Positions 27,377 to 48,361 of a stretch of 64,000 nucleotides of DNA are shown here, piece by piece. The notes below the pieces were generated by a model that did no database searches, had not been told where the DNA came from, and saw nothing but the letters and a program-made list of their open reading frames with translations. Where the stretch lies: positions 2,666,001 to 2,730,000 of the forward strand of contig NZ_LT629781.1 in assembly GCF_900105685.1 (NCBI RefSeq), read 5' to 3'. The stretch is from Verrucomicrobium sp. GAS474 (GTDB lineage: Bacteria > Verrucomicrobiota > Verrucomicrobiia > Methylacidiphilales > GAS474). The translations under genes and the position numbers were made by a program. Numbering within the stretch: the stretch's first letter is position 1; each line of letters begins with the position of its first letter.

Positions 27377-27447
27377 TGCCTGATGGTGTAAAGGTAGCAC
27401 AGGAGATTTTGGATCTCTTAGTCATGGTTCGAATCCATGTCAGGCAA
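27377..27447 (+). tRNA. tRNA-Gln (UUG anticodon)
   Basis: The acceptor TGCCTGA pairs with TCAGGCA. The anticodon loop TTTTGGA sits between GGAGA and TCTCT, giving anticodon UUG. The T arm is CATGGTTCGAATCCATG. CCA is not encoded. It is divergent from tRNA-Glu. Confidence 0.95.
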
Positions 27448-27515
27448 CTTCCCTCCCTCCGGTCTTCTACCTAAGGAACTCTCTCCGTTGGCAACCGGCC
27501 GATACGGGTGTATGC

Positions 27516-30967: not shown

Positions 30968-30996
30968 CCGAAGAAGCATTCCGCATCGGGAGGTGT

Positions 30997-31014
30997 CCCG
31001 CACGTTCGTGCGGG
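30997..31014. other. Perfect hairpin between oxidoreductase and OFA transporter
   Basis: CCCGCACG-TT-CGTGCGGG is a perfect 8-bp stem in the 102-base gap between the two genes. There is no T-run, so it is more likely an mRNA-stability or attenuation element than a full terminator. Confidence 0.45.
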
Positions 31015-31069
31015 GCGGGGGGGATCGGGTGGCGACGGGGCAGAGCAACATCAGAAAGGAAAATCCACT

Positions 31070-32485
31070 ATGTCATTCCTCGATCGATCCCATTCCGTCG
31101 CCGGTCCCGGCTACAACCGATGGTTGGTGCCGCCCGCCGCCCTCGCCATCCACCTCTGCATCGGGGAGGTCTACGGATTCAGCGTCTTCAAGCTCCCGCT
31201 GGCCTCCCTCCTCGGCACCGGCGGGAAGCCGGGCGCGGGCGACTGGACGCAGACCCAGATCGCCTGGGTCTTCTCCATCGCCATCGTCTTCCTCGGCCTC
31301 TCGGCGGCGGTCTTCGGGAAGTGGATGGAGAAGAACGGCCCGCGCAAGGCGATGTTCGCCGCCGCGTGCTGCTTCGGCGGCGGCTTCCTCGTCGCCTCGG
31401 TCGGGGTGCGGATCCATTCGCTGAGCCTGATCTATCTCGGCTACGGCGTCCTCGGCGGGATCGGCCTCGGCCTCGGCTACATCTCGCCGGTCTCGACGCT
31501 GGTGAAGTGGTTCCCCGACCGGCCCGGCATGGCGACGGGGATGGCGATCATGGGCTTCGGCGGCGGGGCGATGATCGGCGGTCCGCTTGCGGTCCTGTTG
31601 ATGAAGCACTTCTCCGCCTCGCCCACCCACGGCGTCGCCCCCGCGATGGTCGTGATGGGGATCGTCTATTTCCTCTTCATGCTCTTCGGCGTCTTCACGG
31701 TCCGCGTCCCGGCCCCGGGCTGGGCGCCCGCCGGATATGTGCCGCCTGCCGAGTCGAAGGGGCTGATCACGAAGCACAACGTCTCGGTCGACCGGGCGTG
31801 GAGGACTCCCCAGTTCTGGTGCCTCTGGGTCGTCCTCTGCTTCAACGTCACGGCGGGCATCGGCATCCTGGAACAGGCCTCCCCGATGATCCAGGAGATG
31901 CTCCTGGTCCCGAGGGCGACGGCGGGGATCGATCCGGCCGACACCGCGTCGATCGCCGCCGCCAAGGCCCCGCTCGCCGCCGTCGCCGCCGGGTTCGTCG
32001 GCCTGCTGAGCCTCTTCAACATGGGCGGGCGGTTCTTCTGGTCGTCGATCTCCGATTACATCGGGCGGAAGCCGGTCTACTTCATCTACCTCCTCCTCGG
32101 GCCGGTGCTCTACTGCCTGATCCCCGTCGCGGGCCGGGCGGGAAGCGTCGGGTTCTTCGTCCTCCTCTGCGTCCTGATCCTGACGATGTACGGCGGCGGC
32201 TTCGCGACGGTGCCGGCCTATCTTAAGGATCTCTTCGGATCGGTCCAGGTCGGGGCGATCCATGGGCGGCTCCTCACGGCGTGGTCGGTCGCCGGGGTCC
32301 TCGGGCCGCTCCTCGTGAACAAGATCCGCGAATCCCAGATCGCCGCCGGGGCGACGGGGGTCGAGCGTTACGCTCCGACGATGTACCTGATGGCCGGTCT
32401 CCTGGTCGTCGGGGCGATCTGCAACGGGCTGGTCCGCCCGGTCGATTCCAAAAACTACCTCTCCGAAGAGGGGTCGAAAAAATAA
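31070..32485 (+). CDS. OFA-family major facilitator transporter (oxalate/formate antiporter-like)
   Basis: This is a 471-residue inner-membrane protein with about 12 helices. The N-terminal NRWLVPPAALAIHLCIGEVYGFSVF is typical of OFA carriers. The YGVLGGIGLGLGYISPVSTLVKWFPDRPGMATG loop is the MFS/OFA motif, split by helices, and GGRFFWSSISDYIGRK is the second-half MFS signature. It probably moves a carboxylate such as oxalate or formate, matching the fdhD-oxidoreductase pair upstream. A 40-residue membrane peptide follows after 17 bases. Confidence 0.93.
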   Translation: MSFLDRSHSVAGPGYNRWLVPPAALAIHLCIGEVYGFSVFKLPLASLLGTGGKPGAGDWTQTQIAWVFSIAIVFLGLSAAVFGKWMEKNGPRKAMFAAACCFGGGFLVASVGVRIHSLSLIYLGYGVLGGIGLGLGYISPVSTLVKWFPDRPGMATGMAIMGFGGGAMIGGPLAVLLMKHFSASPTHGVAPAMVVMGIVYFLFMLFGVFTVRVPAPGWAPAGYVPPAESKGLITKHNVSVDRAWRTPQFWCLWVVLCFNVTAGIGILEQASPMIQEMLLVPRATAGIDPADTASIAAAKAPLAAVAAGFVGLLSLFNMGGRFFWSSISDYIGRKPVYFIYLLLGPVLYCLIPVAGRAGSVGFFVLLCVLILTMYGGGFATVPAYLKDLFGSVQVGAIHGRLLTAWSVAGVLGPLLVNKIRESQIAAGATGVERYAPTMYLMAGLLVVGAICNGLVRPVDSKNYLSEEGSKK

Positions 32486-32502
32486 AGCAAGAAAGGCAAA
32501 GC

Positions 32503-32625
32503 ATGAACGATACCCCTCATTCCGTCCCCGCCGCCGCCATCGCCCTCTCCTGGCTCTTCGTCGGCATCCCGCTGGCGTGGGGCGTCTACCAGACGATCCA
32601 GAAATCGCTGGCGCTGTTCCATTGA
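32503..32625 (+). CDS. Small single-helix membrane protein, likely MFS transporter small subunit
   Basis: This is a 40-residue peptide with one hydrophobic segment (AAIALSWLFVGIPLAWGVYQ). It starts 17 bases after the OFA transporter stop, preceded by a purine-rich GAAAGGCAAAG. Small partner peptides of this size are annotated beside OFA-type MFS carriers, so it is likely an accessory subunit. No other domain is seen. Confidence 0.75.
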   Translation: MNDTPHSVPAAAIALSWLFVGIPLAWGVYQTIQKSLALFH

Positions 32626-32678
32626 GCCGAAGATTGAAGGCAATCTCGGGAATGGCTTGAAAAGGGCCGCCGGGCTGC

Positions 32679-35090
32679 TTGGTTGTGGGGGTGGCCCTGG
32701 CCTCCCCCGCATCCCGCCGCCTGTGCGGCCTCCTTCTTTGCTCGCTAGCCATGGGAATGGCTGTCCCGGGCTTCGGGGAGATCCTTTCCAATCCCGGCTT
32801 CGAGACCGGGCTGCAGGGTTGGAGCGCCCTCTGGACCCGGGAAGCCGACGCCGGGACGGTGGCCCTCGACGGCCGGGAGTTTCACGGCGGGGCGACCTCG
32901 CTCCGGATCGAGCATCGGGGAGCGAAGGACTGGAGCCTCGAGGCGAAAGACCGCCTCGCCGTCGCGCCCGGCGACCTGGTCGAGATCTCGGCCTGGGCAA
33001 AAAGCTCCGAGGCCGACTCCGACGCCAGCCACCTGACGCTTTGCGTGGCGAGCCGGAACGACTTCGGCACGGTCGAGCAATGGAACCTCGGCGCCTTCCC
33101 GTTCGATCGGGCCGAGGGCAAGGCGGGCGAGTGGCGGCGGCTCCGTTCCCGCTTCCTCGTCCCGCCCGGCGTCGTCGAGGTCCAGCTCCGGCTCATCGGT
33201 TCCGGCGTGGGACGGCTGTGGGTCGATGATCTCTCCCTCGTGAAGCTCCCCGGCCTCGGCGAACTGAGAAACAAGGACATGCCCCCGAAGATCACTCTCT
33301 CGAACCCGGCCCTCGACGTGACCCTCGATACGGGGGCGGGAGCCTTCACCGTCGTCGACCGCCGGACCGGGGAGACCTTCCGCCAGAATCCGGTCTCCCC
33401 CGACGTCGTCCTGCTGAACGCGGAGGCAGGAAAGGCTCCCGACGATCTCGCGCTCCGCTTCACCCTCCTCAACGCCGCCACGGGGATGAAGATCGAGGCG
33501 ACCCTCCGTCTCGACCCGGCCCGGCCCGAGTTCACCCTCGACCTCGCCGCCCAGGGGGAGTTGCCCGGCACCCTCCATTATCCCGGTCCCTTCCTCACGA
33601 AGCCGGGGCAATACCTCGTCGTCCCGATGAATGAGGGGATTTCCTACCCGGTCGAGGACCCCGACATCCAGCCGATGGACCTCGTCGCCTACGGCGGCCA
33701 CGGGATCTGCATGGCCTTCTGGGGCGTCACCGACGGGGAACACGGCCAGATGGCGATCCTCGAAACGCCCGACGACGCCGCGATCCGGATCGACCGCCAT
33801 GACGGAAAACTCGACATCGCCCCCCAATGGGAGCCGCAGAAGCGGCAGTTCGGCTACCCCCGCCGTCTCCGTTACATCTTCTTCGACCAGGGCGGCCATG
33901 TGGCGATGGCGAAGCGTTATCGGGCCTACGCGAAGGAGACCGGCCTGTTCAGGACCCTCGAGCAAAAGCGGAAGGAAAATCCCGAGGTCGACCGGCTGAT
34001 CGGGGCAGTCAACGTCTGGTGCTGGGACAAGAACGCCGTCCCCTTCGTCCGGGAGCTGAAGGCGGCGGGCATCGACCGCATCCTCTGGAGCAGCGCCCAG
34101 TCGCCCGAAACCCTCAAGGCCCTCAACGACCTCGGCGTCCTCACCAGCCGCTACGATATCTACCAGGACGTGATGGACCCGGCCCAGTTTCCCCGCCTCC
34201 GCTACGTCCATTCCGATTGGCCGACGGCGGCATGGCCCGACGACCTGGTCCGCAACGCGGGCGGCGATTGGGTCCACGGCTGGGACGTCGAGACGAAGGA
34301 CGGGGGGCTTTATCCCTGCGGCGTCCTCAGCGATGGCCAGGCGCTGAAATATGCCCGGGAACGGGTCCTCGCCGACCTCGCCACCCATCCCTACCGCTGC
34401 CGCTTCATCGACACCACCACCGCCTCCCCGTGGCGCGAGGACTACAATCCCCTCCATCCGATGACCCGCTCCCAATGCCGCGAGGCCCGGATGGCCCTCC
34501 TGAAGTTCATCTCGGCCGATTGCCACCTCGTCACCGGGAGCGAGACGGGGCACGACGCCGCGGTTCCCTTCGTCGATTACTTCGAGGGGATGCTCAGCCT
34601 CGGGCCCTATCGCGTCCCCGACGCGGGCCGGGAGATGCAGCGCGTCTGGGACGAGGTGCCGGAGAACCTCTCGAAGTTCCAGGTCGGCCACGCCTACCGC
34701 CTCCCGCTCTGGGAGCTGGTCTACCACGAGTGCGTCGTCGCCCAATGGTATTGGGGCGATTACAGCAACAAGCTCCCGGCCCTCTGGGACAAGCGCGACC
34801 TCTTCAACGTCCTCTACGGCACCCCTCCCATGTTCATGTTCGACCGCGCTGGCTGGGACAAGAACAAGGAACGCTTTGCCCAGAGCTATCGGAACGTCGC
34901 CCCGGCGGTCCGCGCCGTCGGCTACAGCGAGATGACGAACCACCGCTTCCTCACCCTCGACCGCAACGTCCAGCAGACAACCTTCGCCAACGGCACCGTC
35001 GTCACCGTGAACTTCGGTTCCCAGCCCTACCGGACGCCGGGTGGGACCCTCCTGGCTCCCCTCGGCTTCCGGGTCGATCAGGCGAATTAG
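32679..35090 (+). CDS. Secreted glycoside-hydrolase-like protein with N-terminal carbohydrate-binding-like domain
   Basis: This is an approximately 803-residue protein. A signal peptide (RRLCGLLLCSLAMGMAVPGFG) leads a jelly-roll CBM4/9-like domain starting ILSNPGFETGLQGW (to about residue 185). A beta-sandwich region follows, then a TIM-barrel-like half from about residue 420 (FVRELKAAGIDRILWSS, DVMDPAQFPRLRYVHSDW, RFIDTTTASPWREDYNP, GSETGHDAAVPFVDYFEG). The layout recalls GH101/DUF5696-type hydrolases and the family is uncertain. The start is TTG 32679, or GTG 32685 or 32691. A glucokinase follows. Confidence 0.8.
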   Translation: MVVGVALASPASRRLCGLLLCSLAMGMAVPGFGEILSNPGFETGLQGWSALWTREADAGTVALDGREFHGGATSLRIEHRGAKDWSLEAKDRLAVAPGDLVEISAWAKSSEADSDASHLTLCVASRNDFGTVEQWNLGAFPFDRAEGKAGEWRRLRSRFLVPPGVVEVQLRLIGSGVGRLWVDDLSLVKLPGLGELRNKDMPPKITLSNPALDVTLDTGAGAFTVVDRRTGETFRQNPVSPDVVLLNAEAGKAPDDLALRFTLLNAATGMKIEATLRLDPARPEFTLDLAAQGELPGTLHYPGPFLTKPGQYLVVPMNEGISYPVEDPDIQPMDLVAYGGHGICMAFWGVTDGEHGQMAILETPDDAAIRIDRHDGKLDIAPQWEPQKRQFGYPRRLRYIFFDQGGHVAMAKRYRAYAKETGLFRTLEQKRKENPEVDRLIGAVNVWCWDKNAVPFVRELKAAGIDRILWSSAQSPETLKALNDLGVLTSRYDIYQDVMDPAQFPRLRYVHSDWPTAAWPDDLVRNAGGDWVHGWDVETKDGGLYPCGVLSDGQALKYARERVLADLATHPYRCRFIDTTTASPWREDYNPLHPMTRSQCREARMALLKFISADCHLVTGSETGHDAAVPFVDYFEGMLSLGPYRVPDAGREMQRVWDEVPENLSKFQVGHAYRLPLWELVYHECVVAQWYWGDYSNKLPALWDKRDLFNVLYGTPPMFMFDRAGWDKNKERFAQSYRNVAPAVRAVGYSEMTNHRFLTLDRNVQQTTFANGTVVTVNFGSQPYRTPGGTLLAPLGFRVDQAN

Positions 35091-35145
35091 CCCTAACCTT
35101 TCCGGCACCTTTGCGGGATTCGTTTTTTCCTGTATCCTAGCCCAA

Positions 35146-35844
35146 GTGAAAATCCTCGTAATCGACGTCGGCGGAACGCATGTGAAGGTGAAGGCGACGG
35201 GGCTCCCGAGCCACCGGGAGGAGATCAAGATCGATTCGGGCCCCGGGATGACGGCCCGCCGGATGGTCGCGGCGGTTCGCAAGGCGGTCGCGGGGTGGAA
35301 GATTGACGCTGTCACCATCGGTTATCCCGGCGCGGTCCTCCACGGGCGGATCGTCAGCGAGCCCCACAACCTTGGCTCCGGCTGGGTCCGCTTCGATTTC
35401 AAGAAGGCCTTCGGAACCGCGAAGGTGAAAATCGTCAACGATGCCGCGATGCAGGCCCTCGGCAGCTACGAGGGGAAGGGGAAGCGGATGCTTTTCCTCG
35501 GCCTCGGCACCGGCCTCGGCTCGGCGATGATCGGCGACGGCGTCCTCGAGCCGATGGAGCTGGCTCATCTCCCCTTCAAGAAGGGAAAGACCTACGAGGA
35601 ATACGTCGGCCTCGCGGGCCTGGAACGGCTGGGGAAGAAGAAGTGGCGCAAGGCGGTGGCCGAGGTCGTCACCCAGCTCAAGGCGGCGCTGGCCGCCGAT
35701 TACGTCGTCCTCGGCGGCGGCAACGCCCGGCTGCTGAAGACCCTCCCTCCCGGCGCGTGGCTGGGCGACAACGAGAATGCCTTCCAGGGCGGCTTCCGGC
35801 TCTGGGAGAAAAAGGGGATCTCGCTCTCGGGAACCCGTCGATGA
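35146..35844 (+). CDS. ppgK: ROK-family polyphosphate glucokinase-like kinase
   Basis: This is a 232-residue kinase. The phosphate loop is VIDVGGTHVK, IGYPGAVLHGRI and GWVRFDFKKAFG are PpgK-type sugar and phosphate-site segments, the catalytic Asp lies in IVNDAAMQALG, and GLGTGLGSAMIGDG follows. It lacks the ROK zinc motif, as PpgK proteins do. It phosphorylates glucose from polyphosphate or ATP. GTG 35146 is the start. A TTGCGG-16-TATCCT box at 35111-35138 would leave almost no leader and is only a weak promoter guess. Confidence 0.85.
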   Translation: MKILVIDVGGTHVKVKATGLPSHREEIKIDSGPGMTARRMVAAVRKAVAGWKIDAVTIGYPGAVLHGRIVSEPHNLGSGWVRFDFKKAFGTAKVKIVNDAAMQALGSYEGKGKRMLFLGLGTGLGSAMIGDGVLEPMELAHLPFKKGKTYEEYVGLAGLERLGKKKWRKAVAEVVTQLKAALAADYVVLGGGNARLLKTLPPGAWLGDNENAFQGGFRLWEKKGISLSGTRR

Positions 35845-35886
35845 ATAGGCCCGCGGAAGTTAAATAATCGATCCCCCTCCGTCTTT

Positions 35887-36531
35887 ATGAACTTCGATCC
35901 CGCCGACCCCTCGACGCCCCATCTCGCCTACAACATGTTGATCGGCCTGGTCGCGCCCCGGCCCATCGCTTGGATCACCAGCTTCGACCTGGAGGGGAAG
36001 ATCAACGCGGCTCCGTTCAGCGCCTACAACTACGTGGGGACCGAGCCCCCCATCGTCGCCATCGGCGTCGGGAACCGGCCCGGCCCGGGCGTGATCGGGA
36101 AGGACACGGCGCAGAACATCCGCGCGACGCGGGAGTTCGTGATCAACGTCGTCGACGAGACCCTCGCCGAGGCGATGAACCTCTGCGGCGTCGAGTTCCC
36201 TCGCGGCGTGAACGAGCTCGAGGTCGCCGGCCTCACGACGGCTCCCTCGGCGGTGGTGAGGGTCCCCCGCATCGCCGAGGCCCCGGCCGCCCTCGAATGC
36301 CGCGAGATCACGACGATGGAGATGGGACGCTCCCGGATCATCCTCGGGGAAGTCGTCTCCTTCTACGTCCGGGACGAGTTCGTCGATCCCGCCGGTCCCT
36401 ACGTCCTCTCCGAGAAGCTCCACGCCATCGGCCGGATGAACGGGCGCGGCGCCTACGTGAAGACCCGCGACGCCTTCTTCACCATCCCCCGCCTGAGCTA
36501 CGACGACTGGAAGAAAAAGAACGGCCAGTAA
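35887..36531 (+). CDS. Flavin reductase-like FMN-binding protein
   Basis: This is a 214-residue protein of the flavin-reductase/DIM6-NTAB type. LIGLVAPRPIAWITSFD starts the split-barrel FMN site, SAYNYVGTEPPIVAIG follows, and TREFVINVVDETLAEAMN is typical. It is probably an NAD(P)H:FMN oxidoreductase. The tpsB gene converges on it with a 3-base gap. A second, broken copy of its 3' three quarters lies at 42055-42525 on the far side of the tps locus. Confidence 0.92.
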   Translation: MNFDPADPSTPHLAYNMLIGLVAPRPIAWITSFDLEGKINAAPFSAYNYVGTEPPIVAIGVGNRPGPGVIGKDTAQNIRATREFVINVVDETLAEAMNLCGVEFPRGVNELEVAGLTTAPSAVVRVPRIAEAPAALECREITTMEMGRSRIILGEVVSFYVRDEFVDPAGPYVLSEKLHAIGRMNGRGAYVKTRDAFFTIPRLSYDDWKKKNGQ

Positions 36532-36534
36532 CGC

Positions 36535-38310
36535 TCAATAGGCGAGGGTCATGCCGAGCGACCAGCGGCTGGAATGGGGATCGCCCGTGTCCCGCAGCTG
36601 GATGCCGTAATCGGCGTGGAAGGAGAGGTAGTTCCCGAGGTTGTAGCGGATGCCGGGGCCGACGCTCGCCATCGGGATGGCGTTCTTGGCCCGCCCCGCG
36701 TTGTCGGTGAGCGTGTCGCGGTGGGAGCGGGCCTCGCCGATGTCGAAGAAGCCGAGGATCTGGAGCTGGTCCCGAGCCTGCTTGGGGACGACGTTCGCGC
36801 CGAGGAGGTCGGTGAGGGAGACGGGGGGGAGACGCAGCTCGTTCCGCAACGTCCAGCCCTCGTCGGTGCCGGAGAGATCGTATTCGCTGTAGCCCCGGAT
36901 CGATTGCGCCCCGCCGAACTGGAGTTGCTCGCTCGGCAGGAGGGGGCCGTCACTCACCTGCCATTGGAGGTCGTGGGCGAGGGAGAAATTCCAGGGGAGG
37001 TTCGTCTGCCGCGAGAGAGCGAGGCGGAGGTAGGTGTAATCGGGCGAGGCCCCGGAACGGACCGCGTTGTAGGCCTCGTGGTTCTGGTGGCCCCAGACGC
37101 TGTTGCCGCTCCAGTAGAGCTGGGGATTCACCGTCGTCGTCCCCAGCGGATCGGTGATCGTCCCGCTGTAGGAGAGGACTTCCTGGCCGACGTCGACCGT
37201 CGAGTTCGACGCCGGGATCGAGCTGAATTCGAGCGAGTTCTGGGACTGCTTCCAATCGTAGCCGAGCGTGACGCTGTGGCGGTAGACCCCGGCCACCTCG
37301 GGAAGGGGGATTTCGTAGCGGGCGCCGACCTGGTCGCCCGCGCCCCGGATGTCGAGGGGGCCACTGACGGCGTGGCTGGTGGAGAGGGCACCGAAGAAGG
37401 TGAGGGTGTGGTGCCACGGCAGCGGGATGACCCAGGAGCCCGAGTGGCCGACGAAGGCGGTCCCGTCGCCGCTCATCGTGTATTGGTAGGAGAGGAGCTG
37501 GTTCTGGAGGAAGGCGTTGCCCCAGTTGAAGCCCGCCTCGTAGCGGTCCTCGCCCGTGATGGCGTTGCCGGTGTTCTCGTAGCCGGTGTAGAAGCGGAAG
37601 GGGAAGCGGTCCTCGGTCCGGAGGGTGATGTCGGTGGTGCCGACGTCGCTGCCGGGGCTGAAGACGGCGGTGCTTTGGTGGAAGGGATTCTGGTTCACCC
37701 AGTTCACGTCGGAGGCGAGGCGGTTCGTGCTGATCGGCTCGCCGGGGCGGAGGCGGACGCCGGAGACGAGGAGGTCCTTGGAGAACCAGCGGGTCCCCTC
37801 GGCCTCGACCTTGCCGACCCGGCCCTCGATGAAGACGAGCTGGAGGACGCCGTTCGTGATGTCCTGCTGGGGGACGACGACGTCGACGACGGGCCGGTCC
37901 TGCGCCCGGCACCAGACGACGACGTCCCGCACGAGGGCGCTGAGACTGGCGAGCGAGAGCCGCTTCCCGAGGTAGGGGGCGACGACGGCGTCGAAATCGT
38001 CCCGCTGGAGCAGCGGGATGCCGTTCGTGACGACGCCGCCCCGGGCCTCGGGCTGGGCGGCGACCTTTCCCGCCGCGTCGACGAAGACGACGGCCTGGAG
38101 CTTTTCGACGAGGAGCTTCGTGTTGTCGTTCTCCTCGGGGAGCGGCTTCTCCATCATGAAGGCGGGGAGCGTCGCCATCGGGGGGAGCTTCGGCTGGATG
38201 CTCGAATAATCCTGCGCGCGGAGAGGGGAAAGGCCGCCGAGGAAGGCGAGGGCCAAGATCCAAAGACCCGTCTGGGCCCCTTTCGGGCTTTTTTTTAAGA
38301 TAAGCGTCAT
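36535..38310 (-). CDS. Two-partner secretion outer-membrane transporter (TpsB/ShlB-FhaC family)
   Basis: This is a 591-residue protein with a signal peptide (about 1-32, ending LSPLRAQ). POTRA domains (about 90-240, RPVVDVVVPQQDITNGVLQLVFIEGRVG in pieces) lead into a 16-strand beta barrel ending in the aromatic-terminal SLGMTLAY. VNQNPFHQSTAVFSPG and FRFYTGYENTGNA are family-like. It exports the TpsA partner encoded 42 bases upstream in the same operon. The last residue Tyr fits a BAM-assembled barrel. Confidence 0.93.
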   Translation of the reverse strand: MTLILKKSPKGAQTGLWILALAFLGGLSPLRAQDYSSIQPKLPPMATLPAFMMEKPLPEENDNTKLLVEKLQAVVFVDAAGKVAAQPEARGGVVTNGIPLLQRDDFDAVVAPYLGKRLSLASLSALVRDVVVWCRAQDRPVVDVVVPQQDITNGVLQLVFIEGRVGKVEAEGTRWFSKDLLVSGVRLRPGEPISTNRLASDVNWVNQNPFHQSTAVFSPGSDVGTTDITLRTEDRFPFRFYTGYENTGNAITGEDRYEAGFNWGNAFLQNQLLSYQYTMSGDGTAFVGHSGSWVIPLPWHHTLTFFGALSTSHAVSGPLDIRGAGDQVGARYEIPLPEVAGVYRHSVTLGYDWKQSQNSLEFSSIPASNSTVDVGQEVLSYSGTITDPLGTTTVNPQLYWSGNSVWGHQNHEAYNAVRSGASPDYTYLRLALSRQTNLPWNFSLAHDLQWQVSDGPLLPSEQLQFGGAQSIRGYSEYDLSGTDEGWTLRNELRLPPVSLTDLLGANVVPKQARDQLQILGFFDIGEARSHRDTLTDNAGRAKNAIPMASVGPGIRYNLGNYLSFHADYGIQLRDTGDPHSSRWSLGMTLAY

Positions 38311-38352
38311 GATTTTCTGGGAAGTAAAATGGAAGAGGAAGGGAGTCCCCGA

Positions 38353-41300
38353 TCAATGGCCCGCCCGGGCGGCGACCTCGCTGCTGGAGGTGCCGTAGAT
38401 CAGGTTCGGGAGATACGAATACCAGTTGCCGGAGGTCTGCCCGGCGGGCGGCTGGGCGTAGGAGATCGTCGAGGGGAGGCCCGGGGCGTGGATCACGGCG
38501 GCGGTCTTGCTCCCTTTTTTGGCGGTGGCGGCCGAATCGTCCTGTTTGCCGACGGTCACGGTGTCGCCGTCGGAGGAGAAGGGCGAGGTATCGCCGAAGT
38601 CGGCCGCGTCGTCCTTCTTGGCGAGGGCCTTTGCCGTCTTGGCCGCGGTGGCGGTTCCGTTGGCGGCGGTGGCGGGGTTCTGGACCGTGGCCGCGGTCGA
38701 ACTGGCGGTCGCCCCCGTCGTGGCGGCGGTGGTCCGGACCTGGACGGTCTGGCCGTTGGAGAGGGGGGCTCCGGTGATCGTCAGCGCGGAGGCGTTGCCC
38801 GAGGCCTGGGTGAAGGTGTAGTTCCCGTTGTTCGCCGTAAGGCCGCCGCCCTTGATCGCGGCGGTGAGGCTGTCGGTCGTCTTCGTCGCCGTCGAGGTGA
38901 AGGCCAGCGTCCCGGTCGTCGCCGTGGCCTGGGTCTGCCCGAGGACGAAGCCGGTGACGGTGCCGCCGAAGGCGGGGTTGGCGGTGCCGTAGGCGCGGGT
39001 GCTCCGGTTCGCGGTGTAGGTCAGGATGGCGGGGTTGATCAGGTCGATGCCCGCCAGGTAGGTGATCGTGTAGTTGGTCAGGCCCGATCCGACCGCCCCG
39101 GAGGCGGTGATGGCGTAGCTGCCGACATTCGCCGCCGCCGCCGTGCCGGAGCTCGACAGCGTCACCGAGTTCACGGCGTCGCTGTTCTTCAGGCCGGTGA
39201 CGGCGTATTGCGTCAGAGTCTGGGCGGTGCCGTAGGTCTTGGTGAGGTCGGAGGCCTTGATCGTGAGGGAGGCCGTGTTCACGGTGTCGGTTCCCGCCAC
39301 GTAGGTGATGGTGTAGTTGGAGAGGCCGACGCCGGTCGCCCCCGAGGCGGAGAGGGTGTAGGCGGCGACGTTGGCCGTCTTGGCTGTGCCGAGGCTGCCG
39401 AGGGTCACCGAGTTCACGGCGTCGCTGTACTTCAATCCGGTGACGCTGAAGGCGGAGAGGGTCTGCTCGCTCCCGTAGGTCTTCGAGGCATTGCTGGCGG
39501 TGATCGTCAGGGGGGCCGTCGTGATGGTCTCCAAGGCGCTCTGGAACTCGACGGTGGAACCGGCCTTGACCGTCGCGGTGGGGACGATGAAGTTCGTCGT
39601 CCCGGCGTTGACGTTGCTCCCGCTCAGGGCGAGGGCGACGCTGCCGGTGATGTAGGTCGTCAGCGTGCCGCCCGCCGAGGTGTAGCTGGTGGAGAGGTTG
39701 GGGGCCGACCCGTAGGTCACGCTTTGGGCGCTGGCGATGACGGCGGCCTGGGTGAGGGGGGACTGCCATTGGAGGTAGGGGAGGCCGCCGTTCACCTGGC
39801 CCGCGCTGGTATAGCCGTTGAGGCCCCAGGTGCCGGTGAGGGGGGTGAAGGTCCAGCCGGTGCCGAAGCTGGAGGAGAGCTCCATCTGCGCGAGGGTGAG
39901 GCCGGAGGAGGTGGAGGCGGCGCTGGCGTTGACGATCGTGCCGGTGGTGGTGCCGGAGACCGACTCGTAGGCGTAGCTGTTGGCGAGGGTGCCGGTGTTG
40001 GTTCCGGCGATCGGGCCGATGGTGGTCGTGACGCCCCCGGCTTCGCTGCCGACGGCGTAGGAGTTCGAGATCGCGGCGCTGTTCGTCCCGGCGAGGCCGC
40101 CGACGGTGGCGGCCGAGGTTCCGGAGACGGAGGCCGAGGCGAAGGAGAGGCTGATGGTTCCCCCGGCATTCGATCCGACGAGGCCGCCGACGTTCGTCGC
40201 GGTGTTCCCGATGACCGTGCCGGTGATGTAGCTGGCGGTGATCGTCCCGGTGTTCTTCCCGACGAGGCCGCCGACGAGGCTGGCGCTCTTCGTCGAGGTC
40301 ACCGTTTCCGAGGTGAGGCCGAAGTTCGAGAGGGTGCCGCTGTTCGCGCCGATGAAGCCGATGTTCGTGTCGGTCGCGTCGGTGAGGGTCAGGCCGCTGA
40401 TCGTGTGGCCGAGGCCGTCGAGGTAGCCGGTGAGGGAGGCGATCGGATCGGCGGTGTAGGCGGCGGTGGGGGCCGAGACGCTCGCGCCCAGGGCGTAATT
40501 GCCGCCGGGGGTGGTGTTCACCGCGCTGATGAGGTTCGCGGCGGTGGTCACGACGGTGTAGGTGCGGAGGCTCCCCGACTTGCCGATCTTCAGCGCCGTG
40601 GTGCTGGCGGGGAGGGTGATGGAGGATGCCCCGCCGAGGGTATACCCGGCGGTCGTCAGGCCGTTGCTGCCGTAGCTGAGGGTCAGGCCCGCCGAGGCGC
40701 TGGAGGCGGTGATGTTCGCGTTGACGTAGATGCTGTTGTAGGCGTCGAGGATCAGGCTGCCGGTGCCGGTCCAGGTGATCGCCGAGGCCACGGTGATGTC
40801 GCCGGAGCCGCTGGCGGTGGTCCCCGACCCGGAGGTGGTGGTGGCCGTGGTCTGCTCGGTGACGTTGGTCCCGGTGTTGAGGGCGGTGACGATGGTCGCC
40901 GCCGCGGTGGCGTCGATCGTGAGGTTGGTCGGGTCGATCAGCCATTCGCCGCCCGGGGCGGTCTGGATGGTGCCGAGGAGTTCGACGCTCTCGCCGCTGG
41001 TCTCGATGTGGCCGCCCTTGCCGTCCTGGTTCTGGGCGGTGATCGTCCCGGTGTTCTTCGTCGTCCCGCCCTCGGCGAAGAGGAGGACCCGGCCGTCGAC
41101 CGTGGCGGAGCCGGTGGCGCGGATGATGCCGCCGTTGTTGATGGCGAGGGCATATTCGTTCCCGCCGACGGCCTTCAGGGTGGCGACGGCCGCCTCGATC
41201 GTCCCCGTGTTGGTGACGGTGCCCTGGCCCGAGGCGGGCTGGATGAGGACCTTGTCGTTGCCGCTCGCCGCCAGGAGGACGTCGGTCGCTCCCGCGAGGC

Positions 41301-41859
41301 CGATGGTGCCGCCGGGGGCGGCGAGGGTCCCCTTGTTCTCGACTTCCTTCGCGATGAGGTAGATGTCCCCGCCGTTGACGCTGATGTTGCCGAGGTTGGT
41401 GATTTTGCCGGTGCTGTTGCCGGAGAAGCGGAGATTCCCGCCCGCCAGGAAGTCGCTGTCGGAGACGTTCAGCGTGCTGGCGAGGAAGCCCGCCGTGTTG
41501 ACCGTGCTGCCGGCGTTGAAGACGATGCCGTTCGGGTTCAGGAGGAAGACCTGGCCGTTGGCCTGGATCGAGCCGGAGATCTGCGAGAGGCTCCCGCCCG
41601 TCACCCGGTTCAGGATGGCGCTGGTGGAGGAAGGCTGGATGAACTTCGTGACCTCGCCCGCGCCGACCGAGAAGCTGTTCCAATTGACGACCGCCCGGTC
41701 GGTCGATTGGGTCACGGTGACGGTGTTCCCGGAGGAGGCGATCGAGGCGGCTCCCTGGGCGACGGTCCCTCCCGAGGGATTGGCCCAGGTGCTGCCGGTG
41801 AAAAGAGTGAGGAGGAATCCGACCTGGAAACTCCTAGTCCGCGAAGAGTGAATCTTCAT
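38353..41859 (-). CDS. Two-partner secretion exoprotein (TpsA) with GLUG and MBG repeats
   Basis: This is a 1168-residue exoprotein. The signal peptide is followed by the filamentous-haemagglutinin secretion domain (GTVAQGAASIASSGNTVTV; NRVTGGSLSQISGSIQANG; FLLNPNGIVFN, the NPNGI box). Then come beta-helix repeats, GLUG-type repeats (GLVGKNTGTI, GLVGSNAGGT), and from about residue 770 repeated MBG-like domains (TKTYGTAQTL, SKTYGSEQTL). It is a probable surface adhesin. The ATG at 41859 is favoured over 41898. It is transcribed with tpsB. The C-terminus carries no recognised anchor. Confidence 0.92.
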   Translation of the reverse strand: MKIHSSRTRSFQVGFLLTLFTGSTWANPSGGTVAQGAASIASSGNTVTVTQSTDRAVVNWNSFSVGAGEVTKFIQPSSTSAILNRVTGGSLSQISGSIQANGQVFLLNPNGIVFNAGSTVNTAGFLASTLNVSDSDFLAGGNLRFSGNSTGKITNLGNISVNGGDIYLIAKEVENKGTLAAPGGTIGLAGATDVLLAASGNDKVLIQPASGQGTVTNTGTIEAAVATLKAVGGNEYALAINNGGIIRATGSATVDGRVLLFAEGGTTKNTGTITAQNQDGKGGHIETSGESVELLGTIQTAPGGEWLIDPTNLTIDATAAATIVTALNTGTNVTEQTTATTTSGSGTTASGSGDITVASAITWTGTGSLILDAYNSIYVNANITASSASAGLTLSYGSNGLTTAGYTLGGASSITLPASTTALKIGKSGSLRTYTVVTTAANLISAVNTTPGGNYALGASVSAPTAAYTADPIASLTGYLDGLGHTISGLTLTDATDTNIGFIGANSGTLSNFGLTSETVTSTKSASLVGGLVGKNTGTITASYITGTVIGNTATNVGGLVGSNAGGTISLSFASASVSGTSAATVGGLAGTNSAAISNSYAVGSEAGGVTTTIGPIAGTNTGTLANSYAYESVSGTTTGTIVNASAASTSSGLTLAQMELSSSFGTGWTFTPLTGTWGLNGYTSAGQVNGGLPYLQWQSPLTQAAVIASAQSVTYGSAPNLSTSYTSAGGTLTTYITGSVALALSGSNVNAGTTNFIVPTATVKAGSTVEFQSALETITTAPLTITASNASKTYGSEQTLSAFSVTGLKYSDAVNSVTLGSLGTAKTANVAAYTLSASGATGVGLSNYTITYVAGTDTVNTASLTIKASDLTKTYGTAQTLTQYAVTGLKNSDAVNSVTLSSSGTAAAANVGSYAITASGAVGSGLTNYTITYLAGIDLINPAILTYTANRSTRAYGTANPAFGGTVTGFVLGQTQATATTGTLAFTSTATKTTDSLTAAIKGGGLTANNGNYTFTQASGNASALTITGAPLSNGQTVQVRTTAATTGATASSTAATVQNPATAANGTATAAKTAKALAKKDDAADFGDTSPFSSDGDTVTVGKQDDSAATAKKGSKTAAVIHAPGLPSTISYAQPPAGQTSGNWYSYLPNLIYGTSSSEVAARAGH

Positions 41860-42054
41860 GCAATAACGATGAATAGGACGTTTAGCGGAAAGAGACAACG
41901 GAAATGGGGGAACAGGCTAACCAAATATTACTCAGTAATTTATCGATGATTTACCTAATGCAATAAATAAAATCTAAGGGTATAAGCCTATTGCCAATAA
42001 GAGCTAAGGTCCTTCCCGGGACGATCGTCGTTTGACAGGAAAAAGGGGTGTCGG
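41860..42054. other. AT-rich spacer upstream of tpsA
   Basis: This is about 195 bases with much lower GC than the surroundings (e.g. CCAAATATTACTCAGTAATT, an imperfect palindrome at 41921-41940). It should hold the tpsA promoter, reading minus, but no box is convincing. No gene is seen. It ends at 42054, where flavin-reductase homology begins abruptly. Confidence 0.5.
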
Positions 42055-42525
42055 ATGATCGTCGCCATCGGCGTCGGGAACCGTCCCGGCCCGGGCGTGA
42101 TCGGGAAGGACATGGCGCAGAACATCCGCGAGACGCGGGAGTTCGTGATCAATGTCGTCGACGAGACCCTTGCCGAGGCGATGAACCTCTGCGCGTCGAG
42201 TTCCCTCGCGGCGTGAACGAGCTCGAGGTCGCCGGCCTCACGACGGCTCCCTCGGCGGTGGTGAGGGTCCCGCATCGCCGAGGCCCCGGCCGCCCTCGAA
42301 TGCCGCGAGATTACGACGATGGAGATGGGCCGCTCCCGGATCATCCTCGGGGAAGTCGTCTCCTTCTACGTCCGGGACGAGTTCGTCGATTCCGCCGGTC
42401 CCTACGTTCTCTCCGAGAAGCTCCACGCCATCGGCCGGATGAACGGGCGCGGCGCCTACGTGAAGACCCGCGACGTCTTCTTGACCATCCCCCGTATCAG
42501 CTATGAGGAATGGAAGAAAAAGTAA
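42055..42525 (+). pseudogene. 5'-truncated, frameshifted flavin reductase copy
   Basis: This is the last ~157 codons of the flavin reductase at 35887, about 96% identical by direct reading (17 substitutions in ~470 bases). The first ~52 codons are missing. One base is deleted near 42192 (CTCTGC-GCGTCG versus CTCTGCGGCGTCG), giving a TGA at 42214. Two bases are deleted near 42270 (GTCCC-GC versus GTCCCCCGC), restoring the frame. It cannot make the enzyme. It lies in the same orientation as the intact gene, beyond tpsA-tpsB. Confidence 0.9.
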
Positions 42526-42617
42526 GCTTCAAATTTAATATTTTGTTTTGCTCTAACTAAAATGAAAATGCTCCTATTCTGTTGTGTTTCAATTTGGAGC
42601 ACGTTAGAACGATTGGA

Positions 42618-44678
42618 ATGGGATCAATCACGACCAATGGCGCGGGCGAACTTCTTCAATTTAATGATGCGAGCCAACTGCCTGTCGATTTAGATATCGA
42701 TGGGCATGTCTTCACAGGCGATGGGTCTGGGCTGATCAATCTTCCCGGGAGTAATATCACTCCTGGTTCCGTGAGTATTGTGGCTTTGGATGCGAGCGGT
42801 TCGCCTTCTTCGACAACTTTCTTAAGGGGAGATGACACATGGGCCACCGCTGTGACGAGTGTGGGTCTTTCCGTTGCACCCGTTCTTGGTACGGTTTCGG
42901 GTTCGCCAGTCACCGGCAACGGAACGCTGGCTATTGCAGCGCCAATCATGAGCGCTGGCACTTTCATTGCGGCGCCCTCAAGCGGAAGCGGTTCGGCAAT
43001 CGCCCGATCTATTTTGGGTTCGGATATCGAAGGGGTTCTCTCCGATGCTATGGATCTGGCCTTTGGGTCCTCGCAAGGTAGCATTCTGCAGCGGGATACT
43101 ACTGGTTGGGGTATTCTCACTCCGGGATCTGCGGGGCAGGTGTTGCAGACGAATGGTGTCAGCGCCAATGCTTCTTGGGCGGGCCGGGCTGGAGGAGCAT
43201 TGGTTCAGGTTCCTGTGAGGCAAACAGTGCTTTCGGGCGTCGCAAATGCCTCCGGTCAGGCGAACTTTATCACCACCGGGTCTGGATTGCAGCCGGGGGT
43301 TAATACCACTGCGGGGTCCACTCCCTTAACGTTAGCTTTTGCCGCCGGGTTCGGTTCTTTCGGAAGTGTTGATTATGTGGAGCAGATTGTCTCCGATCAA
43401 TCGACCTACTGGGGGTCTCTTACGGCCAATGTCTTTTCCTATTTGGCGATCACCCGCACTGGTGTTGGTGCGATTTCCCCCTATGTGACCCTTGCGCCTC
43501 CTCAGTATGATTATGCTTACAATCAGTCTGCGCAGGCGTCTCTTTCTTTAAATAATATCAGCACAGATGATTTTGGTAATTCCTGGACAAATACGAGTGT
43601 TACTTTTTCCAATGTTTCACCTGCTATTTCGGGAACCTATTTCGGATCTTTCAATGGCTCTTCTTCTAGAATGGCTGGAACGGGGTTCATATCACTTGGA
43701 AATGGAGGGTGGTCATTACGCGGATGGATCAAATCGACTTCCTTTGCTGCAGATAATGGCCTTTTTGGTCTAAACAATGTTTCGGGTTATGGTGCCAATA
43801 TTTTCATCAATACTTCAGGAAAACTTGTCGTTGGACTTAGTTCCAATGGTTCTTCATGGGATATTGCCAATATTACCGGCACAACGGCTCTTTCGGTTAG
43901 TACGTGGTATTTCGTCGAACTGACCTATGATCCCATCGCAGGAAAGTATTTCACCTATATCAATGGGGTTGCCGATGCCGGATTGACCATTGTTTCGACG
44001 AGCAAAATCGGTGCTGTTATGGTAGCTAATTTTGGAGCCGTTAATTTTGGGGGAACCAATAAGTTTCTCTCTGGAAATGGGCAAGGGTTTGAGTTCCTGC
44101 CTTATTGCCAACATCCGAATGGAATAACTTATTCAGTGCCGACCTCGTTATCGCTTATTACCGCCAGTGGCTATGCGTCGGATTGGTTCGATTTGACGAC
44201 TATGACGATGAAAAGCATTTTGGGGGCGTCCATCAGCCCGGGAACCAACCCAACGTTCACCCAGGTCAATCGTCTTTATGTCGGAGAGGCCACGACAGGG
44301 ACGAGTGCCGTTTCTGCCGTGGTCAGCTATGCCTTCCAAGGACAATATGACAGTGGTTACATCACCCCTCTCCCTGGGCCGGGAACAGCCATGTCTAAAA
44401 CGCATCATATCGGTGTTTCTCAGCTCATTCCTATTTTCAAGGTAAAATGCCTTACTTCGATTCAGGGATATAGCGTGGGAGATGTGGTTTGTGATTTCTT
44501 CACAGAAACGGCGACGCAATACAACACCCAGTCCAAATGGTACAATGCCGTAGCGCTGGGACTTACCGTAGGCTCGGGGCCAAGTGTTTGGGATGTCATT
44601 AATAAATCGAACGGTGCATTGAATTCCCTGCCTGCAGACAGTTTTGCCTATGCCTTTTCTGCCAAAAGAAGCTGGTAA
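42618..44678 (+). CDS. Tail-fibre-like surface protein with LamG-like domain
   Basis: This is a 686-residue protein of visibly lower GC than its neighbours. The N-terminus (GELLQFNDASQLPVDLDIDG) and the repeats GDGSGLINLPGSNIT and STTFLRGDDTWAT are phrases typical of phage tail fibres and trimeric collar-type adhesins. Residues about 345-480 (GSSSRMAGTGF, WSLRGWIKS, STWYFVELTYD, KYFTYINGV) form a laminin-G/concanavalin-like module. No signal peptide is evident. The start is ATG 42618; TTG 42582 would extend it by 12 residues. No other phage gene is adjacent. Function: probable binding protein, unproven. Confidence 0.75.
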   Translation: MGSITTNGAGELLQFNDASQLPVDLDIDGHVFTGDGSGLINLPGSNITPGSVSIVALDASGSPSSTTFLRGDDTWATAVTSVGLSVAPVLGTVSGSPVTGNGTLAIAAPIMSAGTFIAAPSSGSGSAIARSILGSDIEGVLSDAMDLAFGSSQGSILQRDTTGWGILTPGSAGQVLQTNGVSANASWAGRAGGALVQVPVRQTVLSGVANASGQANFITTGSGLQPGVNTTAGSTPLTLAFAAGFGSFGSVDYVEQIVSDQSTYWGSLTANVFSYLAITRTGVGAISPYVTLAPPQYDYAYNQSAQASLSLNNISTDDFGNSWTNTSVTFSNVSPAISGTYFGSFNGSSSRMAGTGFISLGNGGWSLRGWIKSTSFAADNGLFGLNNVSGYGANIFINTSGKLVVGLSSNGSSWDIANITGTTALSVSTWYFVELTYDPIAGKYFTYINGVADAGLTIVSTSKIGAVMVANFGAVNFGGTNKFLSGNGQGFEFLPYCQHPNGITYSVPTSLSLITASGYASDWFDLTTMTMKSILGASISPGTNPTFTQVNRLYVGEATTGTSAVSAVVSYAFQGQYDSGYITPLPGPGTAMSKTHHIGVSQLIPIFKVKCLTSIQGYSVGDVVCDFFTETATQYNTQSKWYNAVALGLTVGSGPSVWDVINKSNGALNSLPADSFAYAFSAKRSW

Positions 44679-44722
44679 CTAAGAATCGGTTGACAGCGTC
44701 CCGGGCTGAAGGATGGTACCTC

Positions 44723-45883
44723 ATGGTACCTATTTTCGCGGCGCGGTGGCGTTTACCGGCATTGGGTTTCGGTCTCGGATTGGCCTTCGCCCTGGCAGCG
44801 GGGAGCGCCTCCCTCTCGGGTGCTCCCGCGCTCCCGCCTCAGCCGGTCGACGGGCGGTTGATCCCGGCTTATCAATCGGACCGGATTTGGAACGGCGTGA
44901 CGTTGACGGGCGGCGGGCGCGTCTTCGTCGCCTTTCCCGGCGATGGGCCGGGGATCCAGCTGGGCGAGATCAATGCCGACGGCAAGGCGGTCCCTTATCC
45001 CGATGCGGCCTGGAACGGCTGGATCGCTGGGCAGGACCAAGCCCAAGCTCCCAAAGCGGCCTTCGTCCACGTCAACGCCCTCCGCATCGGGCCCGACGGG
45101 AAACTCTGGGTCGTCGACGCCGGGGCTCCCGGCATCGGCAAGGCGGCGGTACCGGGCGGGGCGCGGTTGATCCGCTTCGATCTTGTGAAGAACGCCGTCG
45201 AGCAGATCTACCCTCTCCAGGCCGGGGTGAAGCCGAAGAGCTTCATCGACGATTTCCGCTTCAACGGAGAGAACGTCTACCTCACCGATGCCGGGGAACC
45301 GGCGCTCCTCGTCCTCAACATGCGGACGGGCGTCGTCCGGCGGTTGCTCGACGGCGATGTCTCGACGACCGACCATCGGCCCGTGATGGCCGACGGCAAG
45401 GTCCTGCGGGACGAGAAGGGGAAGCCGGTCTGGATCCATGCCGACCAGATCGAGGTCGCCCCCGACGGCCACGAGGTCTATTACCAGCCCGCCTCCGGCC
45501 CGATGTCCCGCATCGCGGCCGGATGGCTCGACGACTCGACCCTCGATCCGGCGACGATCGGCACCTACGTCGAGCCCTGGCTCGATACGCCGACCGCGGG
45601 CGGGACGGCCATCGACGCCGAGGGGAGCATCTACCTCACCGACCCGAACCACCGCCGCATCCTGAAGATCGCGCGGGACAAGACCGTCACCACGCTGGTC
45701 GCCGATCCCCGGCTGATCTGGGCCGACGCGCTCTGGATCGACCACGACGGCTTCCTCTGGATTCCCGCGACCCAGATGAACCTGGGCAAGGGGCTGAACA
45801 ACGGGAAGAGCGAGATCCGGTACCCGGTCTGGATCTACAAGATGAAGATCGGCGTCGGCCCTGCGCCGAACGATCATTCGTGA
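44723..45883 (+). CDS. Secreted major royal jelly/yellow-like beta-propeller protein
   Basis: This is an approximately 386-residue protein with a hydrophobic export signal (LPALGFGLGLAFALAAGSASLSGA). Six-bladed propeller repeats of the MRJP/SMP-30 type follow (HVNALRIGPDGKLWVVDAG, FIDDFRFNGENVYLTDAGEPALLV, GTAIDAEGSIYLTDPNHRRILKI, WADALWIDHDGFLWIP). These proteins are lactonase-like or bind small molecules, and the substrate is unknown. The start is uncertain (44690 also in frame). GC returns to high values here. Confidence 0.85.
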   Translation: MVPIFAARWRLPALGFGLGLAFALAAGSASLSGAPALPPQPVDGRLIPAYQSDRIWNGVTLTGGGRVFVAFPGDGPGIQLGEINADGKAVPYPDAAWNGWIAGQDQAQAPKAAFVHVNALRIGPDGKLWVVDAGAPGIGKAAVPGGARLIRFDLVKNAVEQIYPLQAGVKPKSFIDDFRFNGENVYLTDAGEPALLVLNMRTGVVRRLLDGDVSTTDHRPVMADGKVLRDEKGKPVWIHADQIEVAPDGHEVYYQPASGPMSRIAAGWLDDSTLDPATIGTYVEPWLDTPTAGGTAIDAEGSIYLTDPNHRRILKIARDKTVTTLVADPRLIWADALWIDHDGFLWIPATQMNLGKGLNNGKSEIRYPVWIYKMKIGVGPAPNDHS

Positions 45884-46044
45884 GGAGGGAGAGCACTCCC
45901 GGTCTTGCAATTTTGGCCTCTTCCTTGCGCTTTGCAGGGGGAGGGGAGACCGGGCGATTTTTCTGCGGTGTCAGTATTTCATTGAGAGCAAGGGGATTAC
46001 GAAAAGAGGCCGGGATGGGGCACGGGTTCTGCACCTCCAAGGGT

Positions 46045-46353
46045 ATGAAAAAGCAATATCTGGGGGTCCTCCCCGTCGTCGGTCTCCTCGCTCTTTCCCT
46101 CGCCACGGGAGGGTGCCAGCGGAACGATAATCCTCCTCCTCCCAAGCCGATGTCGGTCAGCCCCGCGCCGGTCTCCGACACCTACAACACCTCGACCAAC
46201 ACGACCAATTCCCCCTCGGGCGCAAGTTCGGTGAAGGGGAGCGTCGCTCCCGGCGAGACCAACCCGCTGACCTCGCCGACGTCGAGCTCGGCGGCGAACT
46301 CGCAGTCGGCCTCCTCCTCGGCCAAGGGTTCCGTCGCCCCCGGCGCGCACTAG
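46045..46353 (+). CDS. Small Ser/Pro-rich lipoprotein
   Basis: This is a 102-residue protein with a lipoprotein signal peptide ending LATGGC (Cys24), then RNDNPPPPKP and a low-complexity Ser/Thr/Asn tail. The phrase KGSVAPG occurs twice (SSVKGSVAPG and SSAKGSVAPG). It is similar in design to the lipoprotein at 25022-25243. The ATG at 46045 is preceded by CCAAGGG. The function is unknown. Confidence 0.8.
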   Translation: MKKQYLGVLPVVGLLALSLATGGCQRNDNPPPPKPMSVSPAPVSDTYNTSTNTTNSPSGASSVKGSVAPGETNPLTSPTSSSAANSQSASSSAKGSVAPGAH

Positions 46354-46496
46354 CCGCTTAGAAACACCGCCTTCCCAACCGCAGGCGCATGGCTTCCCAA
46401 GCGGGGCCATGCGCCTGCCTGGTTTGCCGCTTTTCGCGTCGGTGGAAAGAGGGGCGATCTTGACCCTTGCTGTCTCCTGGGACAGTTTTCTTCGCA

Positions 46497-48248
46497 ATGC
46501 ATTCCCTTGCCCGCGTATGGCTTCCCGGCCTTCTTCTCCTCGGCTTCGGAGCAGAGCTGGCGGCGGCGGCAGAGGCGGCGTTGCCCATCGCCGACGCAGG
46601 CCTGGGGAAGACGCTCTTTCAGCAGAGTTGCGCGATTTGCCACGCGGACACTCTCAGTGTCGGGGATGCGCAGGTCGTGCGGCTGGGCCCCGGGCTCGTC
46701 GGCGTGATCGGGAGGCGCGCCGGCTCCCTTTCCGGCTTCGCGTACTCGAAGGCCCTCACGGCGTCCGACATCAGTTGGGACCTCTCCACCCTCGATCGCT
46801 TCCTCGCCGCCCCGGCCACGGTGGTTCCCGGCACCACCATGCCGGTTTCCGTTCCGAACGCGGACGACCGCCGCAATCTCATCGCCTACCTCGCCACGTT
46901 GAAGGCCCCGCCGGCTCCTTCCTCTCCGCCCAAACCCGTCCCGGCCGCCTCTGCGCCTCCTGTCAGCGATCCCAACGACTGGCACCATGCCGCCCCCGGC
47001 GTCGCCCACCACCTCACTGTCGCCGATCTCCCCGCGCCCTACAGCACGGTCTCCTCCGGGAACGGTCCGAAGGTGGTGACGCCGCCTCCCGGCACCGTCC
47101 CCGCCGTGCCGCCGGGCTTCACGGTCCGGCAGTTCGCCTCGGGCTTCTCCAATCCCCGCATCGTGCGCGTCGCTCCGAACGGGGACATCTTCATCGCGGA
47201 GACAGGCGCCGGGCGTCTCCGCGTGTTGCGGGCTGCCGACGGCGCCGATGCCCCCTCGGAAAACCAGATCTTCGCGACCGGCCTCGACCGGCCCTTCGGC
47301 ATCGCCTTCTATCCGCCCGGTCCCGACCCGCAGTGGCTCTACGTGGCGAACAACAACGAGGTCGTCCGCTATGCCTACCATAACGGGGACCTCCAGGCGG
47401 GCGGCCCTCCCCAGATCATCGTGCCGCTGCTGACGCAGAGCAATGGCGGCCATACCACGCGGGATCTCGCCTTTTCCCGGGACGGGAAGCGGCTGTTCAT
47501 CTCGATCGGTTCCGGGTCGAACGTCGCCGAATCGATGACCCTGAAGGATGCCGACGCGATCCGCGCCTGGGAGGCCGATCACGGCCTCGGCGCGTCCTGG
47601 GACGGCGAGACGAATCGCGCCGACATCGTGGTGACCGATCCCGAGGGACGCGCCCCCCTGCGCGCCTTCGCCACCGGCATCCGCAACGCCGTCGGTATCG
47701 CCGTGAACCCGGAGACGGGCGACCTGTGGGCCTCCGTCAACGAGCGCGATTCCCTGGGCGACGACCTGGTTCCCGATTACATCACCCGGGTGAAGGAAGG
47801 CGGCTTCTATGGCTGGCCCTGGTATTACCTCGGCAATCACGAGGACCCCCGCCACGCAGGCCGGCGACCCGACCTCGCGGGCCGGGTCCTCGTTCCCGAC
47901 GTGCTGGTGCAGGCCCACTCGGCTTCCTTGCAGATGACCTTCTATCCGGCGGCGGGCAGGGAGACGGAGGGGAGCGCCGCCTTCCCCGCCGCATATCGCG
48001 GAGACGCCTTCGCGGCCCTCCACGGCTCGTGGAACCGGAGTTCGCGCACCGGTTACAAGGTCGTCCGCGTCCGCCTGAACCACGGGGTTCCCACGGGGGA
48101 GTACGATGACTTCCTCACCGGCTTCGTCGTCGACGAGAAAAGCGTCTGGGGGCGTCCGGTGGGGGTGGCCGTCGCCCGGGACGGAGCACTCCTCGTGACC
48201 GAGGACGGAAACGGCACGCTGTGGCGCGTTTCCTACGGCGCTCATTGA
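46497..48248 (+). CDS. Cytochrome c-PQQ-dependent sugar dehydrogenase fusion
   Basis: This is a 583-residue periplasmic protein. After a signal peptide (to about residue 26) a cytochrome c domain carries haem motif C45-A-I-C48-H49 and a likely axial Met in TTMPVSV. A Pro-rich linker (about 145-190) leads to a sorbosone/glucose-dehydrogenase-like beta-propeller (about 200-580; GFSNPRIVRVAPNGDIFIAETGAGRL, FGIAFYPPG, GGHTTRDLAFSRDGKRLFISIGSGSN, GSWNRSSRTGYKVVRV). It should oxidise a sugar and pass electrons internally to haem. PQQ use is from family. Confidence 0.92.
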   Translation: MHSLARVWLPGLLLLGFGAELAAAAEAALPIADAGLGKTLFQQSCAICHADTLSVGDAQVVRLGPGLVGVIGRRAGSLSGFAYSKALTASDISWDLSTLDRFLAAPATVVPGTTMPVSVPNADDRRNLIAYLATLKAPPAPSSPPKPVPAASAPPVSDPNDWHHAAPGVAHHLTVADLPAPYSTVSSGNGPKVVTPPPGTVPAVPPGFTVRQFASGFSNPRIVRVAPNGDIFIAETGAGRLRVLRAADGADAPSENQIFATGLDRPFGIAFYPPGPDPQWLYVANNNEVVRYAYHNGDLQAGGPPQIIVPLLTQSNGGHTTRDLAFSRDGKRLFISIGSGSNVAESMTLKDADAIRAWEADHGLGASWDGETNRADIVVTDPEGRAPLRAFATGIRNAVGIAVNPETGDLWASVNERDSLGDDLVPDYITRVKEGGFYGWPWYYLGNHEDPRHAGRRPDLAGRVLVPDVLVQAHSASLQMTFYPAAGRETEGSAAFPAAYRGDAFAALHGSWNRSSRTGYKVVRVRLNHGVPTGEYDDFLTGFVVDEKSVWGRPVGVAVARDGALLVTEDGNGTLWRVSYGAH

Positions 48249-48321
48249 TCGACGCTGCAAAATGGGCCCGATTTAGAACGCGGCCACGACAGTGCCGTGC
48301 GATGCTTTCGAATGAGGAAAA

Positions 48322-48361
48322 GAAAAAAGCTCCGATCTTCTCTGGCGAGAAAGACCGGAGC
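48322..48361 (-). terminator. Terminator of tRNA-Asp
   Basis: GCTCCG..TCTTCTC and GAGAAAGA..CGGAGC form a stem-loop. On the minus strand it is followed by TTTTTTCTTTT. The stem reuses the last bases of the tRNA. Confidence 0.65.

Follow-up and report, generated by a model that had tools for sequence, protein, structure and literature searches.

How did a two-partner secretion locus in Verrucomicrobium sp. GAS474 come to lie between an intact flavin reductase gene and a second, partial copy of the same gene? GAS474 is a Harvard Forest soil isolate that was sequenced with PacBio only, at 178x coverage (PMC5786674). The window, that is the whole stretch of DNA analysed here, is 64 kb long and corresponds to bases 2,666,001-2,730,000 of the single-contig genome. 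Positions below refer to the window unless given in Mb.

The reductase repeat and the enclosed tps pair

The features that bear on this question are the following.

27214..48355, no strand: plastic interval from tRNA-Glu/tRNA-Gln to tRNA-Asp, 21.1 kb (tRNA positions, comparison with congener G001)
35887..36531, plus strand: intact flavin reductase-like gene (ORF), 214 aa, PF01613 E 2.3e-28
36052..36519, plus strand: repeat copy 1, codons 56-211 of the intact reductase (repeat alignment)
36535..38310, minus strand: tpsB, predicted outer-membrane transporter, 591 aa, PF03865 E 3.2e-24, POTRA PF08479 E 1.1e-9
38353..41898, minus strand: tpsA, predicted secreted exoprotein, TPS domain and MBG_2 repeats, PF05860 E 1.2e-31, PF18676, TIGR01901 E 1.2e-23
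41899..42057, no strand: AT-rich region upstream of tpsA, 41.5% GC, up to the joint 42057/42058
42058..42522, plus strand: repeat copy 2, truncated reductase pseudogene with deletions of 1 and 2 nt, followed by TAA
42582..44678, plus strand: low-GC (49%) orphan ORF in the right flank, 698 aa, TTG start

The stretch 36052-36519 recurs at 42058-42522 on the same strand, with 95.7% identity over 468 aligned columns (E = 0), which bears out the original prediction of direct repeats of about 470 bases at roughly 96% identity in the same orientation. The match is far above chance and is the sole pair longer than 200 bp and above 90% identity in the 64 kb window; in the complete one-contig genome of 3,763,444 bp, the reductase repeat is present in these two copies and no others. 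The left joint, 42057/42058, is abrupt as had been described, but homology begins at 42058 (36052 in the intact gene) and not at 42055, and bases 42055-42057 form an ATG that is in frame, maybe by chance. On the right, identity ends at 36519/42522, three codons short of the intact stop, after which the copy enters a TAA of its own (42523-42525).

The copy lacks the first 55 codons of the reductase, and differs from the intact gene by 17 substitutions and by two deletions, of 1 nt (opposite 36187) and 2 nt (opposite 36264-36265). Translation from the in-frame ATG at 42055 halts after 53 residues. Judged by its two frameshift deletions and 17 substitutions, the copy is a pseudogene that would be unable to encode a reductase. 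There is a small residual doubt that PacBio consensus errors lie behind the two deletions, since these fall in short G and C runs.

Between the repeats, tpsA and tpsB are adjacent and co-oriented on the minus strand, and the Pfam matches confirm the complete pair that had been proposed there. The tpsB gene lies tail-to-tail with the intact reductase at a distance of 3 bp. The likely start of tpsA is the ATG at 41859, and its product contains three MBG_2 domains according to Pfam. Tandem 243-bp units, 71% identical, are found within tpsA at 39020-39505, consistent with MBG_2-type domains. By its domains the pair is a two-partner secretion (type Vb) locus, with export of TpsA by TpsB predicted. 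It resembles other such loci in having a TPS/FHA-type N-terminal TpsA domain beside a TpsB with POTRA and a ShlB-type barrel, and is in itself unremarkable. The GAS474 genome has four tpsB loci, and this one alone is bracketed by a repeated gene. Flanking gene repeats or duplications are absent at the other three, ruling out bracketing by gene repeats as a general habit of the tps loci in this genome.

Age of the duplication and its genomic setting

To polarise the differences between the two copies, the reductases of the congener G002 (80% identical at the protein level) and of G015 (70%) served as outgroups. Over 36052-36488, eight changes fall on the branch of the copy and one on that of the intact gene, and six of the eight polarised substitutions of the copy in these first 437 bp are C to T. 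Over the same bases the copy differs from the intact gene by 2.5%, and the intact gene from that of G002 by 13.5%. Barring gene conversion, the duplication clearly postdates the separation of GAS474 and G002.

The density of differences rises from 2.5% to 19% in the last 31 bp of the repeat, where the copy retains two states common to both outgroups and the intact gene is derived. The clustering in this tail gives an uncorrected Fisher p of 0.0004 and a permutation p of 0.00075. After calibration for the fast evolution of the tail, the p value is 0.07 on G002 and 0.0009 on G015. Both the density and the polarity of the differences shift near 36480-36492; a recombination boundary there is suggested rather than proven, because the clustering falls to p 0.07 when calibrated on G002. 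The intact reductase ends in KNGQ, similar to KNPQP in G015; its tail may accordingly be the native one, with a second breakpoint at the right edge of the copy. A phylum-wide search returned reductases at 41-55% identity, which are too distant for synteny but informative on the C-terminus.

We compared the genomes of 40 relatives. A clear reductase homologue was found in four of them (G002, G015, G024 and G032), and in none of these four was there a tpsB match on the same contig as the reductase. Two remote homologues (28% each), located 12 kb apart on one contig of G003, are not orthologues, and a scan of GTDB contigs with the reductase gave two distant relatives only. The TpsB orthologue of G002 is 80% identical at the protein and 84% at the DNA level. 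In that genome the reductase is located between fdhD and ppk1 (contig 569), and the orthologous tpsB abuts an HD-domain gene (contig 487); their GAS474 counterparts, the ppk1 block (1.33 Mb) and the HD gene (2.84 Mb), have neither reductase nor tps beside them. The G002 contig stops inside tpsA, and the upstream flank of the orthologous tpsA was not found in this genome; its other tpsA matches are paralogues (54% and 46%). The larger context in G002 is limited by its assembly, which is fragmented and 82% complete. In the congener G001, tpsB is absent and the one reductase-like match is partial (29%). The lack of contig sharing in the four relatives, and the location of the G002 orthologues at other addresses, support the view that this reductase and the tps pair are not conserved neighbours. 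Among the genomes compared, the repeat-tps arrangement is private to GAS474.

In GAS474 the interval between the tRNA genes contains fdhD, fdhF, an MFS transporter, genes for a GH129-like and a ROK protein and the reductase, followed by tps, the low-GC orphan gene and two further enzymes, whereas the tRNA-Glu to tRNA-Asp interval of G001 is 4.7 kb and contains a chemoreceptor and other genes. With unrelated neighbourhoods in G002, neither gene in G001 and an interval of 4.7 vs 21 kb, this tRNA-bounded interval is plastic, and congeners differ in where tps is located. As to an empty site, no relative has the same flanks. The closest case is the whole-interval difference in G001, and not a single reductase between these flanks without tps.

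Two further observations concern this interval. The orientation and order of tRNA-Gln relative to tRNA-Glu (27137-27448) are reversed in GAS474 compared with G001 and G002, and the 3' ends of tRNA-Gln and tRNA-Asp both point into the variable interval. Furthermore, the fdhD-fdhF-MFS transporter block (window 27516-32485; L014:1-3780) is located near the reductase in both GAS474 and G002, inverted relative to the reductase.

Origin of the arrangement

The repeat is most likely an ordinary recombination scar, left by a process of a documented kind. The reading that we prefer, at somewhat less than even odds (a probability of about 0.45), is a single insertion event, with a homologous exchange inside the reductase at one end and an illegitimate joint at the other. 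A single past rearrangement would have placed tpsA-tpsB beside the reductase, within the plastic tRNA-bounded interval. One end of the incoming or relocated DNA would have undergone homologous recombination in the 3' part of the reductase, whereas the other end, upstream of tpsA, would have been joined illegitimately to reductase codon 56 (joint 42057/42058). The expected product is a full-length reductase, tpsB-tpsA, a partial reductase and then the old downstream flank, and the spare reductase copy would have decayed afterwards.

Such an insertion is expected to leave part of the homologous gene duplicated beside the insert, as is the case here. Among 60 Lac- integrants analysed in E. coli, the homologous gene was partially duplicated in 56; the duplications measured 109-950 bp in 14 sequenced clones, and were attributed to a single crossover by a shortened, recircularised molecule (PMC3240628). 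The GAS474 locus is similar to such single-crossover integration, or to homology-facilitated illegitimate recombination (HFIR), in combining a homologous exchange in a resident gene with an illegitimate joint, and in the partial duplication beside the insert. The donor in that study was a known plasmid in E. coli, whereas for GAS474 we infer the donor and the timing, as well as the order of events and the homologous-plus-illegitimate mechanism. The outcome of classical HFIR is deletion, and one-sided insertions in competent species typically bring deletion, not duplication (PMC3240628), whereas a duplication is seen in GAS474. A one-sided process of a related kind was put forward to explain displaced T6SS immunity genes (PMC5361080). 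The orphan 3' genes of the Vibrio cholerae T6SS share with GAS474 a one-sided homologous anchor and a piece of the old gene left downstream. The module there replaces the function of the homologous locus itself, whereas the anchor in GAS474 is an unrelated metabolic gene.

DNA uptake by GAS474 is conceivable, since a gene for a ComEC-type competence protein is present at 13966-16353. Neither a donor with reductase-tpsB adjacency nor a recipient with the reductase adjoining the low-GC ORF was found among the genomes compared. Since the copies are only 2.5% apart over the first 437 bp, a simple single crossover is disfavoured for a donor that had diverged as far as G002. With such a donor, the segment would have to be a copy of the recipient's own gene, to which the illegitimate joint would have returned. 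The low divergence is also compatible with a donor of nearly identical sequence or with a move within the genome.

One original prediction, offered beside a duplication, was that the tps locus had arrived with a replacement 3' end for the reductase. Insertion or relocation remains likely. The mosaic over the last ~30 bp fits a newly acquired 3' end in the intact gene, with the old end retained by the displaced copy, and provides modest evidence for this part of the proposal, whereas the C-terminus points in the opposite direction. That this C-terminus may be native, and that the tail mosaic reaches only p 0.07 on the G002 calibration, both speak against the insertion reading.

The main rival, which we regard as rather unlikely, is a tandem duplication with partial loss, tps being already beside the reductase. 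The DNA from codon 56 to just upstream of tpsA would have been duplicated, creating the joint 42057/42058, and the second tps copy then deleted, so that the remaining piece of reductase would have become joined to the right flank. This scenario accounts for the left joint being single and abrupt, for the low divergence, for a right edge three codons inside the gene and for the native-looking C-terminus of the intact reductase. However, two events are required, it is left unexplained why differences cluster in the last 31 bp and why the copy has the outgroup state there, and the adjacency of reductase and tpsB occurs in no relative.

Still less probable is that a dead piece of reductase was inserted in a separate event, unconnected with the arrival of tps and perhaps jointly with the low-GC ORF. 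The fragment does adjoin an atypical gene (49% vs 65-69% GC) without relatives elsewhere in 384 genomes of the class. Its location in the same orientation, 6 kb from its source, makes an unlinked event less economical, though, and no reductase fragment accompanies the ORF's paralogue at 0.61 Mb.

Hardly credible is the speculation that tps is the cargo of a site-specific integrating element, with the reductase as an attachment site whose 3' end was restored and the repeats as att sites. As in integrative elements at gene 3' ends, the cargo has an intact gene on one side and a displaced piece of that gene on the other, and the wider interval is delimited by tRNA genes, but the 6 kb between the repeats contain tpsA and tpsB only, with no integrase or transposase among the ORFs and Pfam matches, and the absence of a recombinase largely refutes site-specific integration. 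Short identical att cores are likewise missing at both ends, where instead a 468-bp repeat of decayed coding sequence with 17 substitutions and two deletions is found; the tRNA-Asp 3' end has no 12-bp match in the interval or elsewhere within 24-52 kb; and the other three tpsB loci are without flanking gene repeats. No precise empty site was found in the relatives, none of which has the same flanks, and the earlier comparison with integrating elements is not supported.

Possible deletion between the repeats, and the low-GC neighbour

RecA-dependent deletion between the repeats would be possible, and was originally expected to leave one full-length reductase. Identical tracts of at least 20 bp provide 190 candidate exchange positions, 113 of which (59%) are computed to yield a 211-aa reductase ending in YEEWKKK, and 77 a frameshifted product. 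The expectation holds for exchanges 3' of 36265 but fails further 5', where the product has one or both frameshifts. We consider it very improbable that the repeats hold tps in a reversible state, with RecA-dependent deletion and re-acquisition via the reductase, and with tps presence polymorphic in the species. If true, this would represent an on/off surface trait with a metabolic gene serving as a recombination handle.

The wider weight of the locus is small, because the general process is already documented. It may serve as a clear natural example of a surface-adhesin locus that lacks its own mobile element and has moved on the chromosome by way of an unrelated metabolic gene that provided the homology. 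It also identifies the interval from tRNA-Glu/Gln to tRNA-Asp as variable, in a verrucomicrobial lineage that has been sampled only sparsely.

The ORF at 42582-44678 has 49% GC in surroundings of 65-69%, and gave no Pfam or NCBIfam match. Its sole relative among the 384 genomes of the class is a paralogue in GAS474 itself, 991 aa long, located at 612,534 and 56-59% identical. A phage origin was considered and rejected, as no phage record matched and there was just a weak match to a PHROG of unknown function. Finally, a dispersed intergenic repeat of ~100-220 bp, 79-88% identical, is present in several parts of the GAS474 genome (window 13700-13980, 13445-13544 and 18495-18669; L037:5135-6089; L039:14979-15042).
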